In this document: one piece after another, positions 1 through 9,881 of the stretch | Layout: every line of letters starts with the position of its first letter | Position numbering within the stretch: position 1 is the first letter of the stretch | From: Trueperella pyogenes | Lineage (GTDB): Bacteria > Actinomycetota > Actinomycetes > Actinomycetales > Actinomycetaceae | Reading direction: 5' to 3' | Assembly: GCF_900460345.1 (NCBI RefSeq) | Contig: NZ_UHHW01000002.1 | Location: 2,108,001-2,172,000, forward strand | DNA: 64,000 nt | Position numbers and translations under genes: made by a program | Notes under the pieces: generated by a model | Seen by the model: the letters and a program-made list of their open reading frames with translations, nothing else | Told to the model about the DNA's origin: nothing | The model's database searches: none

Positions 1-2
1 GT

Positions 3-599
3 CATGGACGCGCACTGGTACGTTGTGATGTCGCAGCAGCTCTTCGCGCCTTACACGACCAACGTATATGTTCGCCACGACAGACTTTCCTACATGGCAT
101 GTCGCATGGAGCGCTTGTCGTTGCCTCTACTGCGATGCATTCTCCTGGTCTCGCAAATCATTATGTATGTCGCGTTCCTATAGCGACAACGCGGAATATT
201 CACCTTAACTCCCTCAGCCGTGAATGGATCAGTGAATACGGCGATCCAAGAACCTCTGACTGGGACGCATTTATGAAATATGAAGATCCTATTGCAACTC
301 CAGTTTATGGTTCACTGAAGGGAACGTCGTGGTTTGTTTCGGCCTATATAGACGACGAAGTGACTCCTGTGGCTCATGCGGATCTACTGGCTGAGAAGCT
401 CCGCGCAAATCAAGCTGAACTGACATACTACCGTTATTGCGCATCTGCAACGCACCAAGGGGCATCTTCAACCCAAGTTCGACAAGAGCATTCCGCTCAG
501 TTGTGGGCCTACCTCACCACACACGCACGCCACATGGACACCACTCATGCGACTACTCCCGCATATGGTGATGTGTTCCGAGAAGGCGAGGAACGGTGA
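3..599 (+). CDS. Alpha/beta hydrolase (S9-like esterase), 5' end outside window
   Basis: The reading frame is open from base 3, so the N-terminus lies outside the window. The visible part contains the nucleophile elbow GMSHG (Ser codon at 102-104), a DDEVTP segment fitting the acid residue, and THQG fitting the catalytic His near the C-terminus. This order is typical of prolyl-oligopeptidase-type esterases. It overlaps the FecCD-type permease by 4 bp (GTGA), so it is co-transcribed with an iron-siderophore importer. A role in releasing iron from an imported ferric siderophore is plausible, but this is inference from context; other substrates are possible. Confidence 0.7.
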   Translation, partial: HGRALVRCDVAAALRALHDQRICSPRQTFLHGMSHGALVVASTAMHSPGLANHYVCRVPIATTRNIHLNSLSREWISEYGDPRTSDWDAFMKYEDPIATPVYGSLKGTSWFVSAYIDDEVTPVAHADLLAEKLRANQAELTYYRYCASATHQGASSTQVRQEHSAQLWAYLTTHARHMDTTHATTPAYGDVFREGEER

Positions 600-1615
600 T
601 AAATGACCGTCGCGGGCGTGTTTTGCTCCTTATTGCGCTAGCTGTTCTACTTGGCATCTGCCTATTATTGGGCGTCGCACTGGGCGCCACCGACATCTCT
701 TTGTCCTCGATACTGCACGTTATTCGAGGTACATTGATTGGCGATGACGGCGGCGTAGAGCAGCAAGTTATTACAGATATTCGTTTGCCGCGCGTGTTGC
801 TAGGATTTGCGACGGGAGCTGGGCTGGCTATGTGCGGCCTGATCACCCAGTCGTTGTTAAGAAATCCGCTAGGTGATCCGTACATCCTTGGCATCTCTTC
901 CGGAGCGTCGACCGGAGCAGCGCTTGTCATTGTTATGGGCAGCTCTCACGCGATCCTCGCTTCGCTCGGAGTGACAGTAGGGGCATTCCTTGGAGCGCTC
1001 CTCGCTATGGTCTGCGTGGGGTTCCTCGCCAGTGCAGGAGGCCGCATCACTCCCGCACGAATCATTTTCGCGGGTATGGCCGTTAACTATTTCTTCTCAG
1101 CGCTCACAAGCCTAATCACAGTCATGGCTAAAAACGCTGCCGGTGCGAAATCTATTGTGTTCTGGATACTTGGCTCTCTCACCTCAGCATCATGGAAAGA
1201 CGTGTGGATAGCGACCGCTTGCACCGCCTTTGCTTTCGCGCTGTTCTTTCTTATGGGACGCCGCGTTGACGTACTCAATCTCGGCGACGATTGTGCAAGA
1301 TCTCTGGGCACTAATCCTCGCACTTACCGAGCAGCGCTCATTGCAATAGTAGCTTTCACCGTTGCCGTCCTCGTCTCGTTGACCGGAGCAATTGGGTTTA
1401 TTGGGCTGGTTATTCCCCATCTTGCCAGGCTGCTTGTCGGATCAACCACCCGCAATACGCTACCTGTGGCTATGGTCGCTGGCGGGATTCTGGTTGTCGC
1501 GGCAGATCTGTGCGCCCGTCTAATTATCCGTCCTGCCGAGCTTCCCATCGGAATCCTCACAGCCTTAGTGGGTACTCCCATGCTCATGGTTTTGATCAAG
1601 AAACATGCACACTAG
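596..1615 (+). CDS. FecCD-family iron-siderophore ABC transporter permease
   Basis: This 339-residue protein is built of about nine to ten hydrophobic helices and has the family length. Near residues 75-95 it carries the RNPLGDPYILGISSGAS stretch, a hallmark of BtuC/FecCD permeases, and near residue 260 the LTGAIGFIGLVIPHLAR stretch that contacts the ATPase. It would form the membrane channel for a ferric siderophore or haem-type ligand. The GTG start overlaps the stop of the upstream hydrolase. Only one permease gene is seen in the window; a second subunit may lie upstream, or this protein may act as a homodimer. Confidence 0.93.
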   Translation: MINDRRGRVLLLIALAVLLGICLLLGVALGATDISLSSILHVIRGTLIGDDGGVEQQVITDIRLPRVLLGFATGAGLAMCGLITQSLLRNPLGDPYILGISSGASTGAALVIVMGSSHAILASLGVTVGAFLGALLAMVCVGFLASAGGRITPARIIFAGMAVNYFFSALTSLITVMAKNAAGAKSIVFWILGSLTSASWKDVWIATACTAFAFALFFLMGRRVDVLNLGDDCARSLGTNPRTYRAALIAIVAFTVAVLVSLTGAIGFIGLVIPHLARLLVGSTTRNTLPVAMVAGGILVVAADLCARLIIRPAELPIGILTALVGTPMLMVLIKKHAH

Positions 1616-1628
1616 AAAAGGAGAGATA

Positions 1629-2615
1629 ATGCACAGCAGCAAAATGACAGCGTTGATCGCATCCTTTGCCATCCTGGCAACGGGTTTATCTGCTTGCTCA
1701 TCAACACCATCGAAACAGTCGGAATCTTCGCCTAGCCAGGCTGACAAGGTCACAGTCAAAAACTGTGGTAAAGAACAAACCTTCACAAATAAGCCATCGA
1801 AGGTTGTTTCCCTCGGCGTTACGGGACTTGCATATCTCGTTGCAGCTGGGGCAGAAGACAAAGTGATTCTGCGTGCAAATGAATGGGGCGAAGACCCCGC
1901 AGCGTGGATGGCTGGTAAAGCAGACAATATTGAAACGGTTCAAGAACCGATTTCCATGGAGGCCCTTGTGGCCAAACAACCAGATTTGGTCTATGGGGGA
2001 GGATTCCAATCTAATGGACTATCCCCAGATGCAGTAATCGAAAAGAAAATCCCTGCTATCGTTGACGCGCCAGAGTGCCACTACTTCTATCCTGACCAGA
2101 AAGAAAACGAGTCGTTCGATGCGATTTTAGGCGAGATCACGATGCTCGGAAACCTGCTGGGATCACAAGAAAAAGCCAAGAAGACCGTTGACGATCTCAA
2201 ATCCAAGATAGACCAGATAGCCAAAGAAAAGCCAGGGCAAGGCCGTAGCGTCTCCTACGCCTACTACTTCGGTGAAGACGAAGGGCTCTACAGCTACGGA
2301 ACAAAGGGCGTCATGGGAGAAATCTCCAAAACCCTAGGACTCACGAGTGCTATTGATCCGAACTACCACCCGCATCAGGGGCCCATCGCTGAAGAAGCCT
2401 TTGTTAAGTCAGATCCAGACATGATTATCGTCTTGCTAGGAATGGGCGGGGCAACTAAAGAATCAACTTTGGCACGTTTGGAAAAGATCCCAGGCTACGC
2501 GAATATGAAAGCCGTGAAGAACAACAAGATTATCTTCGCTGAATCTGCCATTGCATACGCCTCACCCACAGCACTATACGGAACCATCAACCTCGCAGAC
2601 CAGATCCGTCATTAG
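1629..2615 (+). CDS. Iron-siderophore ABC transporter substrate-binding lipoprotein
   Basis: The ATG at 1629 is chosen because AAAGGAGAG lies just upstream (1617-1625); an in-frame ATG at 1605 lies inside the end of the permease gene and lacks such a site. The product has a signal peptide ending in the lipobox LSAC (about residues 22-25), so it should be a lipid-anchored extracellular receptor. The body (SKVVSLGVTGLAYLVAAGAED, then KQPDLVYGGG) matches the PeriBP_2/FepB-type fold. It lies between the permease and ATPase genes and completes the importer. Confidence 0.92.
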   Translation: MHSSKMTALIASFAILATGLSACSSTPSKQSESSPSQADKVTVKNCGKEQTFTNKPSKVVSLGVTGLAYLVAAGAEDKVILRANEWGEDPAAWMAGKADNIETVQEPISMEALVAKQPDLVYGGGFQSNGLSPDAVIEKKIPAIVDAPECHYFYPDQKENESFDAILGEITMLGNLLGSQEKAKKTVDDLKSKIDQIAKEKPGQGRSVSYAYYFGEDEGLYSYGTKGVMGEISKTLGLTSAIDPNYHPHQGPIAEEAFVKSDPDMIIVLLGMGGATKESTLARLEKIPGYANMKAVKNNKIIFAESAIAYASPTALYGTINLADQIRH

Positions 2616-2623
2616 GACCAACA

Positions 2624-3385
2624 GTGAACGATCTTCCTTTGAATGTTGATCAAGCAACCGTGCGATTTGGCTCTTACACGGCCGTTAACCGGGTTTCCTT
2701 TCAGGTGAAACCCGGAAAGATCCTCGGTATAGCCGGCCCCAACGGTTCAGGAAAAACAACGCTTTTGCGCTCTCTGTTTGGGGCGCAAGCCCTCGCCGCT
2801 GGGACAATTACACTCGAAGGAAATCCACTGCACAAAATGCGGGCATCACAGATCAGCAAAAAAGTATCTGTGGTCTCTCAGTTCGAGCACGACACTGATC
2901 GGATGCGAGTAGAGGAGTTCGTCCTCTTGGGACGAGCTCCTCACCGCACCGATTTCCAAGGATATTCGGATACAGACCATGACATTGTCAGCCAAGCCCT
3001 CCACAGAGTCGGCATGTCTGGGGTTAAAGACCGGTATTTCACCACACTCTCAGGTGGAGAGCGCCAACGCGTTCTTATCGCTAGAGCTTTGACTCAGCAA
3101 TGCCCCTGTATGCTGCTGGACGAGCCGACTAATCACCTAGACGTGAAATATCAGCATCAAGTCCTTACTCTCGTACGTGAGGTTGCACCTACAGCAGTAA
3201 TCGTCTTACATGATCTGAATCTTGTCGCACGATATTGCGACGAAGTCATCGTCATGAACCATGGGGCAATCGCTTGCCAAGGCCATCCAACAACTACCCT
3301 CTCCAAGGAACTTATCGCCGACATCTACGGCGTGGAAGCCGTCGAAGTATACGACGGGGATATCAAACAATTCATCTTTCGATGA
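2624..3385 (+). CDS. FecE/FepC-type ABC transporter ATP-binding protein
   Basis: This 253-residue ATPase has Walker A GPNGSGKTT (about residues 39-47), signature LSGGERQR, Walker B CMLLDEPTNHLD and the H-loop VLHDLNLVARY, all in the expected order for siderophore/haem importers. It begins with GTG eight bases after the binding-protein stop. It would power the importer encoded by the three upstream genes. It ends only 11 bp from the convergent methyltransferase gene and I see no hairpin terminator in the gap, so the two transcripts probably run into each other. Confidence 0.94.
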   Translation: MNDLPLNVDQATVRFGSYTAVNRVSFQVKPGKILGIAGPNGSGKTTLLRSLFGAQALAAGTITLEGNPLHKMRASQISKKVSVVSQFEHDTDRMRVEEFVLLGRAPHRTDFQGYSDTDHDIVSQALHRVGMSGVKDRYFTTLSGGERQRVLIARALTQQCPCMLLDEPTNHLDVKYQHQVLTLVREVAPTAVIVLHDLNLVARYCDEVIVMNHGAIACQGHPTTTLSKELIADIYGVEAVEVYDGDIKQFIFR

Positions 3386-3396
3386 CTCTTCGTTCA

Positions 3397-4149
3397 CTAC
3401 TTGACAGCTAGAAATCCTTCAAAATTCATATATCTAATCACAGGAGTAACCTTCTCAAAACCAACGCAACGCAACGAATCAATCATAGATGCCGACGTTT
3501 CAGGTTTAATGACACCGTAAACACTCTCAGATTTCGTCACCACGTGTTCAGCGCTTAATCCGTTATATGTCTTAAACCGTGAATAAAGCAGTAATGCAAG
3601 TTCTTGAAAGAATGCGTCCTGCTGAAGAATTTTCGAATACGTAAAGAACGCCCCACCTTCGCGAAGACTTTCAAATATGTTCTTGAAAAGCTCGATTTTT
3701 TTGGAATGAGACAGGAACTGCGTCGTAAGAAAATCCACCACGAAATCGCACGTTTCAAAACTGAAGTTTTCCAGATTTGCTTCTATTAGCTCAACGTTCT
3801 TTAAGCCTGCACAATGTTCACGTGCCTTTGCGATCATCTCATTTTCACAATCGATACCTATCCAATTCACAGATTGAGTTCTGGCGTTATGGCAGGCAAG
3901 CTTGGCAATCAGCTCACCGGTAGAAACGCCCAGTTCATAAGCTGTTCCGTTCGGTAACGAGAAACAACTGGCCAACTCGGCTGCCATAAAATGACCATCG
4001 TCATACAAAGGTACAGATTTACGTACATGACTAACGAAGGAATTGGCGACTCCATGAGAAAACGTCCAGCAGCCGTTTTCCACAGTAATCTCGGTGTCGA
4101 CCTGTGCTATATCTGACCCCGACCTCGGCGGAAAAGATGAATCAGCCAT
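3397..4149 (-). CDS. CmoA-like SAM-dependent enzyme (carboxy-SAM synthase family?)
   Basis: Read from the ATG at 4149 (MADSSFPP), which overlaps the upstream gene by 8 bp; a longer start at 4170 is possible. The class I fold is shown by motif I YELGVSTGEL (about residues 71-80), the acidic loop IGIDCENEMI and DFLTTQFL. The order FSHGVANSF, SVPLYDD, LREGGAFF, FKTYNGLSAEHV, C-terminal RYMNFEGFLAVK resembles E. coli CmoA, which makes carboxy-SAM for tRNA wobble-uridine modification. That similarity is from memory. No CmoB partner is visible; the neighbour is a different methyltransferase, and the pair sits behind an iron box. The substrate is unknown. Confidence 0.65.
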   Translation of the reverse strand: MADSSFPPRSGSDIAQVDTEITVENGCWTFSHGVANSFVSHVRKSVPLYDDGHFMAAELASCFSLPNGTAYELGVSTGELIAKLACHNARTQSVNWIGIDCENEMIAKAREHCAGLKNVELIEANLENFSFETCDFVVDFLTTQFLSHSKKIELFKNIFESLREGGAFFTYSKILQQDAFFQELALLLYSRFKTYNGLSAEHVVTKSESVYGVIKPETSASMIDSLRCVGFEKVTPVIRYMNFEGFLAVK

Positions 4150-4909
4150 CGCAGCCCTTCCGATACACACGGATCATCGTAGGAGAGTCATCGACAATCG
4201 GTGAGCCATCCCATGTTTCATAAGCCTGATGCAGTTTCATTCCGCTATGACTAGCCATCTCGTCTAACTGCTCGGTAGAGCAATAATGGGAAGCAGAAGT
4301 ATGAATCCGTGGAGTTTCCCCGTCATTAAACATCAGATAGGCGTTGAGTAAAATACGCTGCTGCGGATCATGCATCTCTCCAGCCGCTATGACTGATCCC
4401 TTATCGATTTTAAGCACATTGAGCCCTGTACCACCAAAAGGGTAGCCTTCTGGGCGCATTAACTCGACGACAAAATAGCCTCCACATGCCAAATGAGCTG
4501 AAGCTCTGTCGAAACAGTTCTGTTGTGCTTCATCGGTTAACAGCATGTGAAGCCCCCACGAAATAAAATAAACAAGATCAAAGTTCTTACGGGGCAAGTT
4601 AAAACTTTGTGCATCATCCAATACTGCATCAATCGAGTGCTGAGTATCTTTTTCTTCAAGATATCGAAGCATATGAGCAGATGTATCGAGGCCAGTAACT
4701 TTTACACCACGTTCGGACAACGGAATAGCAACCCGCCCACTACCGACCCCTATCTCTAATGCTCGTCCATGAGGAATTAACGAAGCCAGAAAATCAGCAC
4801 TTGCTTGCGTAGTCGGTCGCTCAGAAAAATACCTCTGCCATAACTGCGACCACTCCTGCCCATAGATGTAATTATTCATCCCATCTAGGTCTACCTCAGG
4901 GTTTAACAT
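4142..4909 (-). CDS. Class I SAM-dependent methyltransferase, first gene of iron-box operon
   Basis: The ATG at 4909 is preferred because GGAGG (minus strand) lies at 4914-4918; a GTG one codon upstream is too close to it. Motif I is ALEIGVGSGR (about residues 50-59), followed by GLDTSAHML, a DDAQSF acidic loop and FDLVYFIS. A central ELMRPEGYPFGGTG segment and a beta-rich middle recall small-molecule methyltransferases. It is the first gene of a two-gene unit with the CmoA-like gene and lies 16 bp downstream of a DtxR-type operator, so it should be derepressed in iron starvation. The substrate is unknown. Confidence 0.8.
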   Translation of the reverse strand: MLNPEVDLDGMNNYIYGQEWSQLWQRYFSERPTTQASADFLASLIPHGRALEIGVGSGRVAIPLSERGVKVTGLDTSAHMLRYLEEKDTQHSIDAVLDDAQSFNLPRKNFDLVYFISWGLHMLLTDEAQQNCFDRASAHLACGGYFVVELMRPEGYPFGGTGLNVLKIDKGSVIAAGEMHDPQQRILLNAYLMFNDGETPRIHTSASHYCSTEQLDEMASHSGMKLHQAYETWDGSPIVDDSPTMIRVYRKGCDG

Positions 4910-4925
4910 CACACCTCCATAGATC

Positions 4926-4944
4926 TTAGGTTAGGCTACCCTAA
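4926..4944 (-). promoter_or_regulatory. DtxR/IdeR-type iron box
   Basis: The 19-mer TTAGGTTAGGCTACCCTAA differs from the DtxR/IdeR consensus TTAGGTTAGGCTAACCTAA at one position. It directly follows a minus-strand TATAAT (4944-4949), so repressor binding there would cover the transcription start of the methyltransferase/CmoA-like operon. No clear -35 box is visible at 17 bp. Confidence 0.9.
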
Positions 4945-4949
4945 TTATA
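4944..4949 (-). promoter_or_regulatory. -10 element of the iron-box operon
   Basis: A perfect TATAAT on the minus strand abuts the iron box, placing the start point inside the operator. The -35 region is not recognisable. Confidence 0.65.
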
Positions 4950-5399: not shown

Positions 5400-6503
5400 C
5401 TAGCGCTGGACGCGCGCACCCCCGCCGGCCACGAGGCGCTCTACTTCTTCAAGTGACGCCATCGTGGTGTCGCCCGGCGTAGTCATCGCGAGCGCGCCAT
5501 GGGCAGCGCCGTACTCGACGGCGTCTTGGATCGAGTCCTTCTCCATGATCCCGTAGATCAACCCGGAGGCGAAGGAATCGCCGCCACCCACGCGGTCGAG
5601 GATCTCCAGGCCGTCGCGCTGGGTAGCCTTGACGAAGCCTTCCTCTCGAGTCCACGCGACGGCGGACCAGTTGTTGATCGTCGCCGTCTTGACCTCGCGC
5701 ATCGTGGTGCCGATCGCCTGGAAGTTCGGGTAAGCCGCCGAGGCTGCTTCGATCATCTTACGGAAGGAATCGACCTCTAGGTTGTCGAGGTTCTCGTTCG
5801 CGCCCTCGATCTCGAATCCGAGGGAGGCTGTGAAGTCCTCCTCGTTGCCGATCATGACGTCAACGTACTGGGCCAGCTCTTTGTTGACTTCCTGGGCCTT
5901 AGCCTGTCCACCGATCGACTTCCACAGCGAGGGCCGGTAGTTGAGGTCGTAGGAGACGACCGTGCCGTATTTCTTCGCGGTCTTCATCGCGGCCTTAGCC
6001 ACCTCGGCGGTGGATTCTGACAGCGCGGTGAAGATACCACCGGTGTGCAACCAACGCACGCCCAGTTCGCCGAACAGGTACTCCCAGTCGATATCCTCGG
6101 GCTGCATCTGCGAGATGGCGGTGTTGCCACGGTCGGAGGTGCCCACCGCGCCGCGCACGCCGTAGCCGCGCTCGGTGAAATTCAGCCCGTTGCGCACGCT
6201 GCGCCCGATACCATCGGATTCGACCCACTTAATAAAACGGGTGTCGAGCCCGCCGGTGAGAATGCAGTCCTCGAGCAACCGGCCGACCTCGTCGCGCACG
6301 AGCGCGGTGACGATGGCTCCGCGCTTGCCGAAGCAACGCCGCAGGCCACGAGCCACGTTGTACTCCCCGCCACCCTCGGAAGCAGCGAAGGAGCGCGTGG
6401 TGCGAATACGCCCCTCGCCCGGATCTAGACGAAGCATGACCTCACCCAAAGAGACGATGTCAAAGGCGCATTCGGCCGCCGGACGCAACTTGATAACACT
6501 CAC
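5400..6503 (-). CDS. kdgK: 2-dehydro-3-deoxygluconate kinase (PfkB family)
   Basis: This 367-residue carbohydrate kinase has the N-terminal signature SLGEVMLRLDPGEGRIR and SEGGGEYNVARGL and the C-terminal PfkB signature VGGGDSFASGL, whose Asp is the catalytic base. It would phosphorylate 2-keto-3-deoxygluconate to KDPG. It is the last gene of a tightly packed operon (4-bp overlap with the aldolase gene), directly before the enzyme that cleaves its product. Family substrate specificity varies, but the context makes KDG the best choice. It is somewhat longer than the usual 310-340 residues. Confidence 0.88.
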   Translation of the reverse strand: MSVIKLRPAAECAFDIVSLGEVMLRLDPGEGRIRTTRSFAASEGGGEYNVARGLRRCFGKRGAIVTALVRDEVGRLLEDCILTGGLDTRFIKWVESDGIGRSVRNGLNFTERGYGVRGAVGTSDRGNTAISQMQPEDIDWEYLFGELGVRWLHTGGIFTALSESTAEVAKAAMKTAKKYGTVVSYDLNYRPSLWKSIGGQAKAQEVNKELAQYVDVMIGNEEDFTASLGFEIEGANENLDNLEVDSFRKMIEAASAAYPNFQAIGTTMREVKTATINNWSAVAWTREEGFVKATQRDGLEILDRVGGGDSFASGLIYGIMEKDSIQDAVEYGAAHGALAMTTPGDTTMASLEEVERLVAGGGARVQR

Positions 6504-7144
6504 TGGCGCAACTCCTTTACCTTCGCCGTCGCCTCAAACGAAAGCTCGGTGATCTTGGCGAATTCCTTATTGTTGATCAGATCGCGCTTAATCATCCACG
6601 ATCCCGATACGGCGGCGATGGCCGGATCGGCGAGCCACTCCCCCATATTCCCCAGGTTCACGCCGCCTGAGGGTACGAATGCCGTGGTCGGGAAGGGGCC
6701 ACGCAGCGCCTTGACCATCTTCAACCCGCCGGCCTCACCGCCGGGGAAGAACTTCACCGCCTTAGCGCCGACGTCGAGCGCCATCATGATCTCGGTCGCA
6801 GTCTGGACGCCGGGCAGGTAGGCGACGGAGCGCTCGTCGGCAACCTGGGCAACGCCCAGGCTGAAGCCCGGCGAGACGAAGAACTTCGCGCCGAGGTCGG
6901 CTGCGCGCTCGGCCTGCTCGCGGTTCAGCACGGTGCCTGCACCCACGCTCATGCCCTCCACATCCGACATAGCCGCAATGGCGTCTGCGCCGGCGGCGGT
7001 TCGGAAGGTCACTTCGGCGCAGTGAATGCCGCCAGCCACGAGGGCTTCCCCGACGGCGACGGCGTCGGCGGCGTCGTCAATAACGACGACGGGGATGATC
7101 GGGTTGTGTGCCAGGAACGGGAGCACATCTGGAATCTGAACCAT
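6500..7144 (-). CDS. eda: KDPG aldolase (2-dehydro-3-deoxy-phosphogluconate aldolase)
   Basis: This 214-residue class I aldolase has the KDPG/KHG pattern: IIPVVVIDDAADAVAVGEAL at the start, GGIHCAEVTFRT with the catalytic Glu, VGAGTVLN, and the Schiff-base lysine in KAVKFFPGG (about residue 135). FVPSGGVNLGN forms the phosphate site. It cleaves KDPG to pyruvate and glyceraldehyde-3-phosphate. It overlaps kdgK by 4 bp and the mannonate dehydratase stop by one base (TAATG), so translation is likely coupled through the operon. Confidence 0.93.
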   Translation of the reverse strand: MVQIPDVLPFLAHNPIIPVVVIDDAADAVAVGEALVAGGIHCAEVTFRTAAGADAIAAMSDVEGMSVGAGTVLNREQAERAADLGAKFFVSPGFSLGVAQVADERSVAYLPGVQTATEIMMALDVGAKAVKFFPGGEAGGLKMVKALRGPFPTTAFVPSGGVNLGNMGEWLADPAIAAVSGSWMIKRDLINNKEFAKITELSFEATAKVKELRQ

Positions 7145-8283
7145 TAGGCGTCACTCCCGGCGTTGGCCGCTTCTTCGGCCTTCTGGCGCTGTGCGACGGT
7201 GGCATCCCACAGCCCTAGGAGGTACTGGGCGCCGAGGGCGCGATCGTACAGCGGGTATCCGGGACGGCCCTGCTCACCCCAGATCATGCGGCCGTGATCG
7301 GGGCGAACATAAATGTCGAAGGACTCGCCTGCCTGCGCAGCTTCCTTTTCGACGTCGTAGAGCACTGCCATGCACTCTTCCATCGGGTTGTCGCCGTCGC
7401 GCGAGAGGTGCGCCGCTTCCTTGAAGGTGCGATCGGAGAAGTGCTTGACGTTGCGCATGTGCGCGGCGTGCAGGCGTCCGCGGCCGCCCACGTAGCGCAG
7501 GATTGCTGGCAGATCGTTCGTCGTCTCCGATCCGAGCGAGCCGATGCACACACACAGGCCGTGGTTCTTGGACTCGTGCAGATCGAGGATCTTGACGATG
7601 TCGTCCATGTTCTTGTACACACGCGGAATGCCAAACAGATCCCAGGCCGGATCGTCGGGGTGGCACGCCATCTTGATGCCCACGCGCTCACAGGTGGGCA
7701 TGATGGCCTCGAGGAAGTACTTCCAGTTTTCGCGCAGCTTGTCGCCGGTCATGCCCTGGTAGAGCGCCATGACTTCGTCCAGGCGAGCCAAACGCTCCGG
7801 CTCCCAGCCGGGCAGAGTGAGGCCGCCGGAGTCTTCTTCGGTATTGTTCACGATGTCCTGCGGGGTCATGCCCTGGATCTTGTCGTGGTCGTAGTAGAGG
7901 GAGGTCGACCCGTCCCGCGGGTCCTCATGGAACAGGTCGGTGCGCAGCCAGTCGAAGACCGGCATGAAGTTGTACACCACGACCTTCACGCCAAATTCGG
8001 CGAGGTTCTCGAGCGTGGTCTTGTAGTTCTCGATGTACTCATCACGGGTGTCGAGGCCAAGTTTGATGTCCTCGTGGACATTGACCGATTCGATGATCTC
8101 GCACTCGAGCCCGGCAGCGTGGACAGCGTCGATGAGCTCCTTGATTTCTTCCTTTTCCCAGTTCTCGCCAGCCTGCTTATAGGACAGCGTGCCCATGATG
8201 CCGGTGACACCGGGAATCTGCTTAATGTATTGCAGCGGGATGGGATCAAAACCTGCGCCATACCAGCGGAAAGTCATTTTCAT
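7144..8283 (-). CDS. uxuA: Mannonate dehydratase
   Basis: This 379-residue protein has the UxuA pattern: [20 protein letters not shown] at the N-terminus, [34 protein letters not shown] with metal ligands, [10 protein letters not shown], and [13 protein letters not shown] near the C-terminus. It dehydrates D-mannonate to 2-keto-3-deoxygluconate, the substrate of the kinase two genes downstream. Length fits the family. It overlaps the reductase gene by 4 bp (ATGA). Confidence 0.95.
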
Positions 8284-9881
8284 GAGAGCGTCTCCTTCAA
8301 AGTGTTACGGACGGCGCCAGGGCCGGCCACGAGTTGGGTGAAAAGTTCTTCGACGCGCGTCGCCAGCGGCGTCTCGTAGAGGTTGACCCCGAAGATTGCG
8401 GAGTTGGACAGGATGGGCTGCAGGGCTGCGTGGGCGTCGACGCCCTGCCCGAGCACGACGTCGTCGAGGTGGGCTTGCAACTCTGCAAGCAGCGGGTCCG
8501 ATGCGGGCTCGAAGGGCTGGCCCTCGTCGTCGACGGCAAGGAGGTAACGCATCCAGTTCGCGATGACCAGCGGGATAGCGGTGAGCTCGCCGAGATCACG
8601 GCCCTGCGCGATGTACTTCTTGATCGTCTCGCCGAAGCGGATGCCCACTTTCTGGGAGGTGTCCATGGCGATGCGGGCCGGGTCGTCGGGCAGGAAGCGG
8701 TTCGGGAAGCGCACTTCGAGGACCTCACGCAGGAAGTCCTCGGGCTTGACGATCCCCGGATCGACGACGACGGGCAGGCCCTCTTCCCAGCCGAGGCGCT
8801 CGACAAGAGCCTTCAGATCGGGGTCGCGCATCTCGGAGTCGATCGTCGGGAAGCCGAGTACGACGCCGACTGTGGCCAGCGCCGTGTGAAGCGGGTTTAA
8901 GCAGGTGGTGACTTTCATGTTCTCGAAGTCATCACAGACCTGGCGGGAGGTCAGGTGGACGCCGTGGGCGGCGAAGTCGGGCACCTCGCCGACGAGCACG
9001 TCTTCGATGATGAGGTATTCGGTGGGCTCCGCATTGACGAAGCCGGCCAGCGGGGTCCGCCCGAGAGTCTCGATGCCCATGTCGGAAAAACCGAGCTCGG
9101 CTAGGGACGCGGCAACGGATTCATTGGGGCGCGGCGTGATCTTGTCGATGACGGTGATGGGGAAAGCCACGCGGGTGGGGTCGGTGACGTATGCGACGGC
9201 GTCGTTGGAGATCTTGCCCGCATCGGCCCAGCCGCGCAGGATGGTCAGGACGGAGTCGCGGAGCTTGTCTCCGTTGTGGGAGAAGTTGTCGAAGGAGATG
9301 AGGTTGATGGGCGCGGCGTTTGCTTCGAAGCGGCGCACGAGCAGCCCGGCGAGGTTCGCCATGGTGTTGGCGTGGAAGGTATGGGGGCCGGCCGCGATGG
9401 CTGCGCGGGCCTGCTCGGAGAGGTTGCCTGCCGAGTCGTGGATACCGTAGCCCTTTTCCGTGATGGTCATCGTGACGAGGGTGACGTCCGGATCGGCGAC
9501 GATCTGGGTGAGGCGCTCGAAGTCTTCGGCACGCTGCCAGGCCAGACCCTCGCAAATGCCCGCGATGACGCGGTAGTCGCGAGTTCCGTCCGGGTTGAGC
9601 ATGACGGACAGCGTCATGAGGTCGTGCTTGCCCAGTTGCAGTTCAAGTTCGGCCGGATCCATCGGCACGACGGCGGTCACGGGCCAGTGCTCGCCTGCGG
9701 CCAGGAGGTCATGGGCGATGCGGGCCGGAAATACGCGGAAGATGTTGCCTGGTCCGAGGTGGATCCAGCGGGGATGTTCTTTGCCCTGGTTCTGCATGGC
9801 CGAGACGTCGAAAGGCGGCAGCTCGATGCCTGCCGCTTCGAAGCCTTCTCGACCTTCTAGTTGCGCGAGATTGAGTTTCAT
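8280..9881 (-). CDS. uxuB: Fructuronate reductase (mannitol dehydrogenase family)
   Basis: This 533-residue polyol dehydrogenase has the N-terminal nucleotide-binding segment [20 protein letters not shown] and the family catalytic region [11 protein letters not shown] and KITPRPNES, then the C-terminal helical domain ([26 protein letters not shown]). It reduces D-fructuronate to D-mannonate, which feeds the dehydratase encoded next. The family also holds mannitol and tagaturonate enzymes; the operon makes fructuronate most likely. It is the first gene of the operon, behind the promoter at 9910-9938. I see no uronate isomerase (uxaC) or uronate transporter in the window. Confidence 0.88.

Follow-up and report, generated by a model that had tools for sequence, protein, structure and literature searches.

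We analysed a stretch of 64,000 nucleotides from Trueperella pyogenes (the window), and for 20 kb around the locus of interest (L009) the DNA to the left of the window was read as well. The left end of the window contains an importer operon that converges on two methyltransferase genes, with the following features:

1..599, plus strand: 3' part of a gene for an S9-family hydrolase, the first gene of the importer operon (Peptidase_S9, E 1.1e-20)
596..1615, plus strand: FecCD-family permease of a siderophore-type ABC importer (PF01032, E 1.7e-87)
1629..2615, plus strand: substrate-binding lipoprotein of the Peripla_BP_2 family (PF01497, E 5.4e-25)
2624..3385, plus strand: ATPase of the importer (ABC_tran, E 7.6e-36)
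3397..4149, minus strand: CmoA-like class I methyltransferase, closest to CmoA; candidate optional tailoring gene
4142..4912, minus strand: class I methyltransferase, kin of peptide and amine N-methyltransferases (CcbJ, YunM and daptide matches)
4926..4944, minus strand: DtxR-type box before the methyltransferase operon, one mismatch to the palindromic consensus
4944..4949, minus strand: TATAAT, a -10-like hexamer read from the sequence, which abuts the box

A first-pass annotation, made from the letters alone, had described the methyltransferase pair as converging on a siderophore importer and an esterase. The importer part stood: FecCD, Peripla_BP_2 and ATPase genes lie together, and by these families and their co-location the importer is of the siderophore type, its substrate being a prediction. 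The supposed esterase turned out to be a Peptidase_S9/oligopeptidase-B-like hydrolase, the gene of which starts about 0.66 kb to the left of the window (full gene L009:8337-9599). For the substrate-binding protein six solved matches were obtained, the best being 4mlz (E 1.6e-16), and siderophore-binding proteins were among them at weaker E-values. The best NCBIfam matches of the ATPase were importers of F420-0, corrinoids, heme and siderophores, all below cut-off. Further into the window (5400-9881), a sugar kinase, a KDPG aldolase, a mannonate dehydratase and an oxidoreductase were recognised by eye; these genes read as hexuronate catabolism and are apparently unrelated to the metal cluster.

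To the left of the window, and divergent from the importer operon, lie in this order a second box, a 34-codon peptide gene, a gene for a fused YcaO cyclodehydratase and genes for two ABC half-transporters. The peptide gene (MENLVIVEISEESTAQITVPHCHHARTTGTFAWA) starts at L009:8237 on the minus strand, between the second box and the YcaO gene. The C-terminal part of the precursor reads ..ITVPHCHHARTTGTFAWA, and the predicted core is ..VPHCHHARTTGTFAW. The YcaO protein comprises 739 residues and belongs to the SagD family (TIGR03604, 233.7 bits with a cut-off of 219.25; PF02624, E 3.2e-50). Azoline-forming YcaO enzymes end in PxPxP, and the C-terminus found here is FPxPHA. Because of this C-terminus, and because Cys or Ser at the third core position is not invariant across the family (PNANN and PHNH occur), the modification may not be an azoline. 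The half-transporters are CydDC-like and score below the CydC and CydD cut-offs; the best 60 of their 153 and 208 solved matches were mainly P-glycoprotein-like, MRP-like and CydDC chains, which do not separate export from import of the IrtAB/YbtPQ kind. In a PADLOC search, both methyltransferases matched only a generic methyltransferase (mad2), and the YcaO protein had no match.

With a SagD-family YcaO above the cut-off and a short conserved precursor gene beside the cyclodehydratase, the cluster is of the TOMM/SagD type. Judged by its genes, the locus is a RiPP cluster, and the gene content left of the window led us to reject a stand-alone operon without biosynthetic context. We regard this peptide cluster as a more interesting object than the methyltransferase pair beside it. 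In addition, a profile search of the same genome found neither IucA/IucC nor an NRPS condensation domain; the models used matched 2 and 4 of 14 control genomes.

The promoter region of the methyltransferase operon had been described as a TATAAT box followed by a 19-mer with a single off-consensus base, and this was confirmed. On the minus strand, positions 4926-4944 read TTAGGGTAGCCTAACCTAA, which differs from TTAGGTTAGCCTAACCTAA at one base, and 100 shuffles of the window yielded not a single box match with up to three mismatches. A scan of the genome with TTAGGNTARSCTADCCTAA found three places with at most two mismatches, two of which flank this cluster. The second of these boxes (G000:C2:2107293, 0.7 kb left of the window) is situated between the importer operon and the peptide gene. 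With up to three mismatches, 5 and 7 matches were found on the two strands versus 4 and 3 for the reversed control; as these counts are little above the control, only the closest matches are meaningful. The third place (G000:C2:1137946-1137964, L010:4947-4965, two mismatches) lies outside the window, about 20 bp upstream of a gene for a surface protein of 1088 residues and adjoining an aconitase gene. By eye, this protein has FG-GAP-like repeats and an LPxTG-like end, and from the position of the box its iron regulation is possible. Boxes of the DtxR type can equally be used by manganese-sensing homologues, and two DtxR-family proteins are encoded in the genome; the repressor acting at these boxes can thus be conceived as iron-sensing or as manganese-sensing.

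The two genes behind the box overlap, as had been noted; the overlap measures 8 bp. For the upstream gene, the Shine-Dalgarno motif and the start of the orthologue in G019, a genome that groups in one genus with Varibaculum genomes, point to the ATG at 4909 as the better start. The product of the downstream gene (3397-4149) had been called CmoA-like. Its best solved match was indeed CmoA (4gek, E 2.7e-19), and both the solved-structure and the profile matches placed it with CmoA and not with UbiE-type enzymes. However, its score against TIGR00740 (E 7e-32, 111 bits; 110.6 in the genome search) stays below the cut-off of 193.3, which leaves it outside this family as defined by the model. The partner protein (4142-4912) had CcbJ (E 6.3e-21) and YunM (E 5.5e-19) among its best solved matches, the cypemycin N-terminal methyltransferase also being among its best solved or profile matches, and reached 62 of the required 175 bits (E 5.4e-17) against NF041820, the equivalog model for methyltransferases of daptide-type RiPPs. 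We take these relatives to be N-methyltransferases of RiPPs and antibiotics. The earlier view that CmoB, the usual partner of CmoA, is replaced here by a different methyltransferase agrees with the profile searches of the partner protein, in which no CmoB model matched, and CmoB was rejected as its identity.

The chemistry originally suggested for the pair fared less well. In CmoA, the carboxylate of carboxy-SAM (Cx-SAM) forms a salt bridge with Arg199, which is described as crucial for its stabilisation (Byrne 2013, PMC3663124). In our alignment to CmoA, the protein encoded in the window retains Tyr39, Ser66 and Asp89 of CmoA, but has Ser at position 199, as do the proteins of G019 and Mobiluncus. 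Three genomes of the family f107, one of them Phytoactinopolyspora, have Lys at this position, two others (G353 and G544) have Ala, and the proteins of G330, E. coli and H. influenzae retain Arg. In all eight proteins without Arg199, Asn132 is replaced by Phe, Tyr or Val (Phe in the window protein), and position 164 holds Ser or Thr instead of Glu in the three proteins from Actinomycetaceae (Ser in that of the window), with Asp or Glu in the other five. Because Arg199, the holder of carboxy-SAM, is missing from the window protein, neither the use of Cx-SAM nor the carboxymethyl chemistry proposed at first is supported. These substitutions make ordinary methyl transfer from SAM the more probable activity, and in the one branch with Lys at position 199 a carboxylated donor is conceivable.

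Next, we determined how the methyltransferase pair is distributed. Five genomes, which come from two distant groups of actinobacteria, have it within a YcaO cluster or next to one. Three of these are among 15 Actinomycetaceae clusters of the close type described below (our genome, G019 and Mobiluncus mulieris), and in two genomes of the Phytoactinopolyspora group (L097/L105 and L106) the pair directly follows the YcaO gene. The latter two have a Zur-type box (see below) with at most two mismatches before the exporter genes. The pair has a DtxR-type box of its own in our genome and in G019 and a weaker one, with three mismatches, in Mobiluncus, where it forms one operon with a FecCD permease behind that box. 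In a sixth genome (G739), the CmoA-like gene lies at a contig end. Whole-genome searches, the thresholds of which differed and each of which counts our own genome, found a CmoA-like gene in 2 of 59 relatives, 3 of 396 genomes of the phylum, 4 of 394 of the class and 4 of 213 of the family. More distant CmoA-like proteins are encoded in G544 and G353, with no YcaO in the DNA examined around the genes. In G353 (L007/L109), the gene for the protein with Ala at position 199 overlaps that of a class I methyltransferase, which matches the DUF1698/CmoB family above cut-off with 31 bits, though another hit is better. CmoA-like enzymes without Arg199 thus appear to pair with a second methyltransferase outside the YcaO setting, too.

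In two other Trueperella clusters (G006 and G008), the predicted core is identical to that of the window's cluster from ITVPHCHH onward. In both, no CmoA-like gene was found in the genome and no match to the second methyltransferase in the cluster DNA examined. Because the pair was not found with these clusters of identical core, it would be a tailoring module that is dispensable for the scaffold, and the two methyltransferases are best read as optional tailoring enzymes of the peptide cluster.

The remainder of the cluster is far more widespread. YcaO relatives were present in 24 of 213 genomes of the family at E values of at most 1e-20, with 25 loci in total. The neighbourhoods of 22 of them were examined (three weak ones, G452, G464 and G498, were left out), and 20 contained FecCD importer genes (all except L058 and L059). 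All 15 clusters of the close type (L009, L014 and L040-L052) have a YcaO gene, a FecCD-type importer, a 34-codon precursor gene encoding PHCHH and a DtxR-type box with at most two mismatches, 43-59 bp before the peptide ATG; in 14 of the 15 the S9 hydrolase gene lies beside the importer. In a second subtype (L055-L057, ..PNSNHHPGVHASTAFQL..), the boxes are weaker, with 3, 4 and 4 mismatches at 53, 51 and 62 bp upstream of the precursor. The DtxR-type box is absent from two further loci of the same family (L053 and L054, 7 and 8 mismatches), which were counted in the Zur-type set. Across 12 distinct DNA blocks, pN/pS of the precursor was 0.28 overall, with a core pN of 0.041 versus a pS of 0.573, values that indicate purifying selection on the precursor. 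Actinomyces gerencseriae (G458) has two clusters, one with a weak Zur-type match (L053, three mismatches) and the other with a weak DtxR-type match (L057, four mismatches); from these boxes, an iron/zinc pair of peptides is possible.

A wider scan, with one genome per species and two peptide patterns, yielded 37 named loci, 10 of which are shared with the family set. They include Trueperella sp. SUG403, Arcanobacterium, Varibaculum, Mobiluncus mulieris and Actinomyces gerencseriae, but also Brachybacterium, Cellulomonas, Microbacterium, Isoptericola, Streptomyces and others. One locus (L069, FQLW01000006), labelled Tissierella sp. Marseille-P2918, appears to be a Varibaculum-type cluster, and the label is probably wrong; Mobilicoccus massiliensis (NZ_LN651329; L075 and L081) has two YcaO family copies on one contig, one of them at its end. 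A FecCD match was found in 28 of the 37 loci and was missing from the DNA examined in nine (L075, L083, L086, L087, L089, L090, L091, L093 and L094), three of which (L075, L083 and L090) start within 0.4 kb of a contig end. By pattern and eye, a precursor was found in 27 loci and not in the remaining 10 (L075, L083, L085, L087, L088, L090, L091, L094, L095 and L096). The distant precursors (..LAPNSNHHGHVATSFSW, ..LAPNANNHGHVSTAFAW, ..IAPHNHAVTAASFHW and similar ones) share Pro, a His/Asn-rich stretch and F-x-W; Cys or Ser is common, not invariant.

A DtxR-type box was not found in 16 distant importer/exporter regions, in which the best match to TTAGGTTAGGCTAACCTAA had at least seven mismatches. 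This absence led us to a different palindrome, AATGANAANNNTTNTCATT, which occurred with at most two mismatches in 7 of the 16 regions and with at most three in 12 (not in L074, L080, L081 and L092). Letter shuffles of the regions gave means of 0.00 and 0.01 matches, respectively; as the pattern was chosen after inspection of the regions and the control is a plain letter shuffle, these statistics are partly circular. In three whole genomes, the palindrome with at most one mismatch was found only at these clusters, with no control matches. Its exact 15-base core also occurred where ZnuA genes begin in three of the genomes with distant clusters, and in one genome upstream of a gene for an ABC-3 permease, and because of the association with ZnuA we infer that the palindrome is of the Zur type. 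Nine exact-core loci were looked at: four led to ZnuA or ABC-3 genes, one to an ABC half-transporter on a Brachybacterium contig, and the other four (L114, L119, L120 and L123) showed no clear zinc link by Pfam or eye, although L114 contains a His-rich reading frame. Core matches numbered 14, 19, 8, 4 and 17 in G461, G975, G976, G977 and G978, versus 0, 14, 1, 0 and 6 for the reversed control. The ZnuA sites are an independent test of the pattern, though not a unanimous one. On the contig of the Brachybacterium cluster (L070), five exact cores lie within 25 kb (G978:C34:10364-35147), at 12 to 37 kb from the site of the cluster itself, which suggests a larger zinc island. Taken together, the boxes suggest zinc control of homologous clusters in many actinobacteria, and in most members from the Actinomycetaceae the cluster follows a box of the DtxR type.

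We consider it likely, with a probability of roughly 0.74, that the methyltransferase genes belong to this cluster and serve, under DtxR-type boxes, the formation of a RiPP metallophore. The sequence supplies the gene content, the conservation, the boxes, the purifying selection on the peptide and the lack of IucA/IucC and condensation domains. Of the initial interpretation, the iron-type box, the methyltransferase pair beside a siderophore-type importer and, in direction, the idea of a metallophore that is recovered by the importer were supported; the carboxymethylated small compound was not. Instead, the compound is most likely the ribosomal peptide of the adjoining YcaO cluster, which the first-pass annotation had missed.

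The chemistry, the direction of the half-transporters, the metal bound and the function are deduced as follows. When metal is short, a DtxR-type repressor would come off both boxes, that before the methyltransferases and that separating the peptide gene from the importer operon. The 34-residue precursor would be bound and modified by the fused SagD-family YcaO enzyme, with backbone heterocyclisation at Cys, Ser or Thr as the default guess. Where present, the CcbJ/YunM-like and the CmoA-like methyltransferases would methylate the peptide, most likely at amine or imidazole nitrogens. The S9 hydrolase might trim the leader or open the returned complex. The half-transporters would export the peptide, and the FecCD permease, binding protein and ATPase would return the metal complex. 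On the other side, ligands rich in imidazole are better matched to Zn, Fe(II), Mn or Cu than to Fe(III).

Antimicrobial or cytolytic activity is common among characterised TOMMs, and the YcaO enzyme is of the SagD family, so that the peptide might be an antimicrobial or cytolysin-type TOMM that is induced by metal starvation, with the importer merely nearby. This is unlikely, as FecCD importer genes accompany YcaO across many actinobacterial genera (in the 20 and 28 loci given above), the clusters lie behind DtxR- or Zur-type boxes, and the cores are short, His/Asn-rich and poor in Cys, Ser and Thr. It is also improbable, and somewhat more so, that in members bearing the methyltransferases a carboxy-substituted SAM is still formed by the CmoA-like enzyme, with its Ser or Lys at position 199, and that the second methyltransferase uses this donor to add a carboxymethyl chelating arm to the peptide; these members would then belong to a widespread actinobacterial family of ribosomal metallophores, the one scaffold of which is controlled by a zinc repressor in many lineages and by a repressor of the iron type in most members from the Actinomycetaceae.

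The same donor could alternatively feed a separate small metallophore, carboxymethylated by the pair from Cx-SAM and independent of the YcaO peptide. The closeness to CmoA, the pairing with a second methyltransferase as in CmoA/CmoB and the Lys, which could still hold a carboxylate in one branch, are compatible with such a product. We judge it a shade less probable again, because Arg199, Asn132 and Glu164 are all changed in the window protein and because the five genomes with the pair, from two distant groups, all have it together with a YcaO cluster of this kind. Least probable of all is an importer for haem, corrinoids or a foreign siderophore, with the peptide as a hemophore-like or regulatory partner: the peptide is His-rich, and models for haem, corrinoids and F420-0 are among those matched by the ATPase and the permease, albeit always below cut-off, but the solved relatives of the binding protein include siderophore or iron binders, and Zur-type boxes, which distant clusters carry, are not what a haem system would be expected to have.

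NRPS, NIS or opine-type enzymes are the usual makers of siderophores and zincophores, and all ribosomal metallophores known to us are copper binders and products of MNIO enzymes. If the RiPP metallophore reading is true, the product would be the equivalent of a siderophore, unusual in being made ribosomally. With a YcaO-made peptide that has a dedicated exporter, importer and metal repressor, chelators for iron and zinc would become programmable at the level of the gene, and an orphan TOMM family would gain a function. The cluster could also help to account for iron acquisition by Actinomycetaceae that live in association with animals and humans; in at least one of these, the genome studied here, neither IucA/IucC nor an NRPS condensation domain was found. 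As the type of box differs between clusters, the choice of metal could be tested by comparing homologous peptides.

Among the open-access papers listed by our searches, covered mostly at the level of titles and the beginnings of abstracts, none was seen to link a YcaO or mobilisin cluster to iron or zinc uptake. As a point against the peptide reading, a genome paper on T. pyogenes credits this species with a 'siderophore biosynthesis system' (ciuA-D homologues). For its part, the phocae paper (PMC8235330) describes siderophore-dependent uptake; in the text available, neither of the two names a peptide cluster. The cluster probably belongs to the uncharacterised mobilisin TOMMs, to which it is likened by their published description and not by sequence (Cox et al. 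2015, PMC4603692, in the part available). They likewise have a fused cyclodehydratase, occur in Mobiluncus and other Actinobacteria and have a short peptide poor in Cys, Ser and Thr. However, their list includes a B (dehydrogenase) protein, and no gene for one was seen among those annotated in the window's cluster; the words 'iron' and 'siderophore' do not occur in the main text of that paper. As proposed here, methanobactins, bufferins and bulbicupramide are gene-encoded peptides in which modification creates the metal ligands (PMC12538549, available in part). Those systems use MNIO enzymes and bind copper, whereas in the present family a YcaO enzyme goes together with a FecCD importer and with boxes of the DtxR or Zur type.
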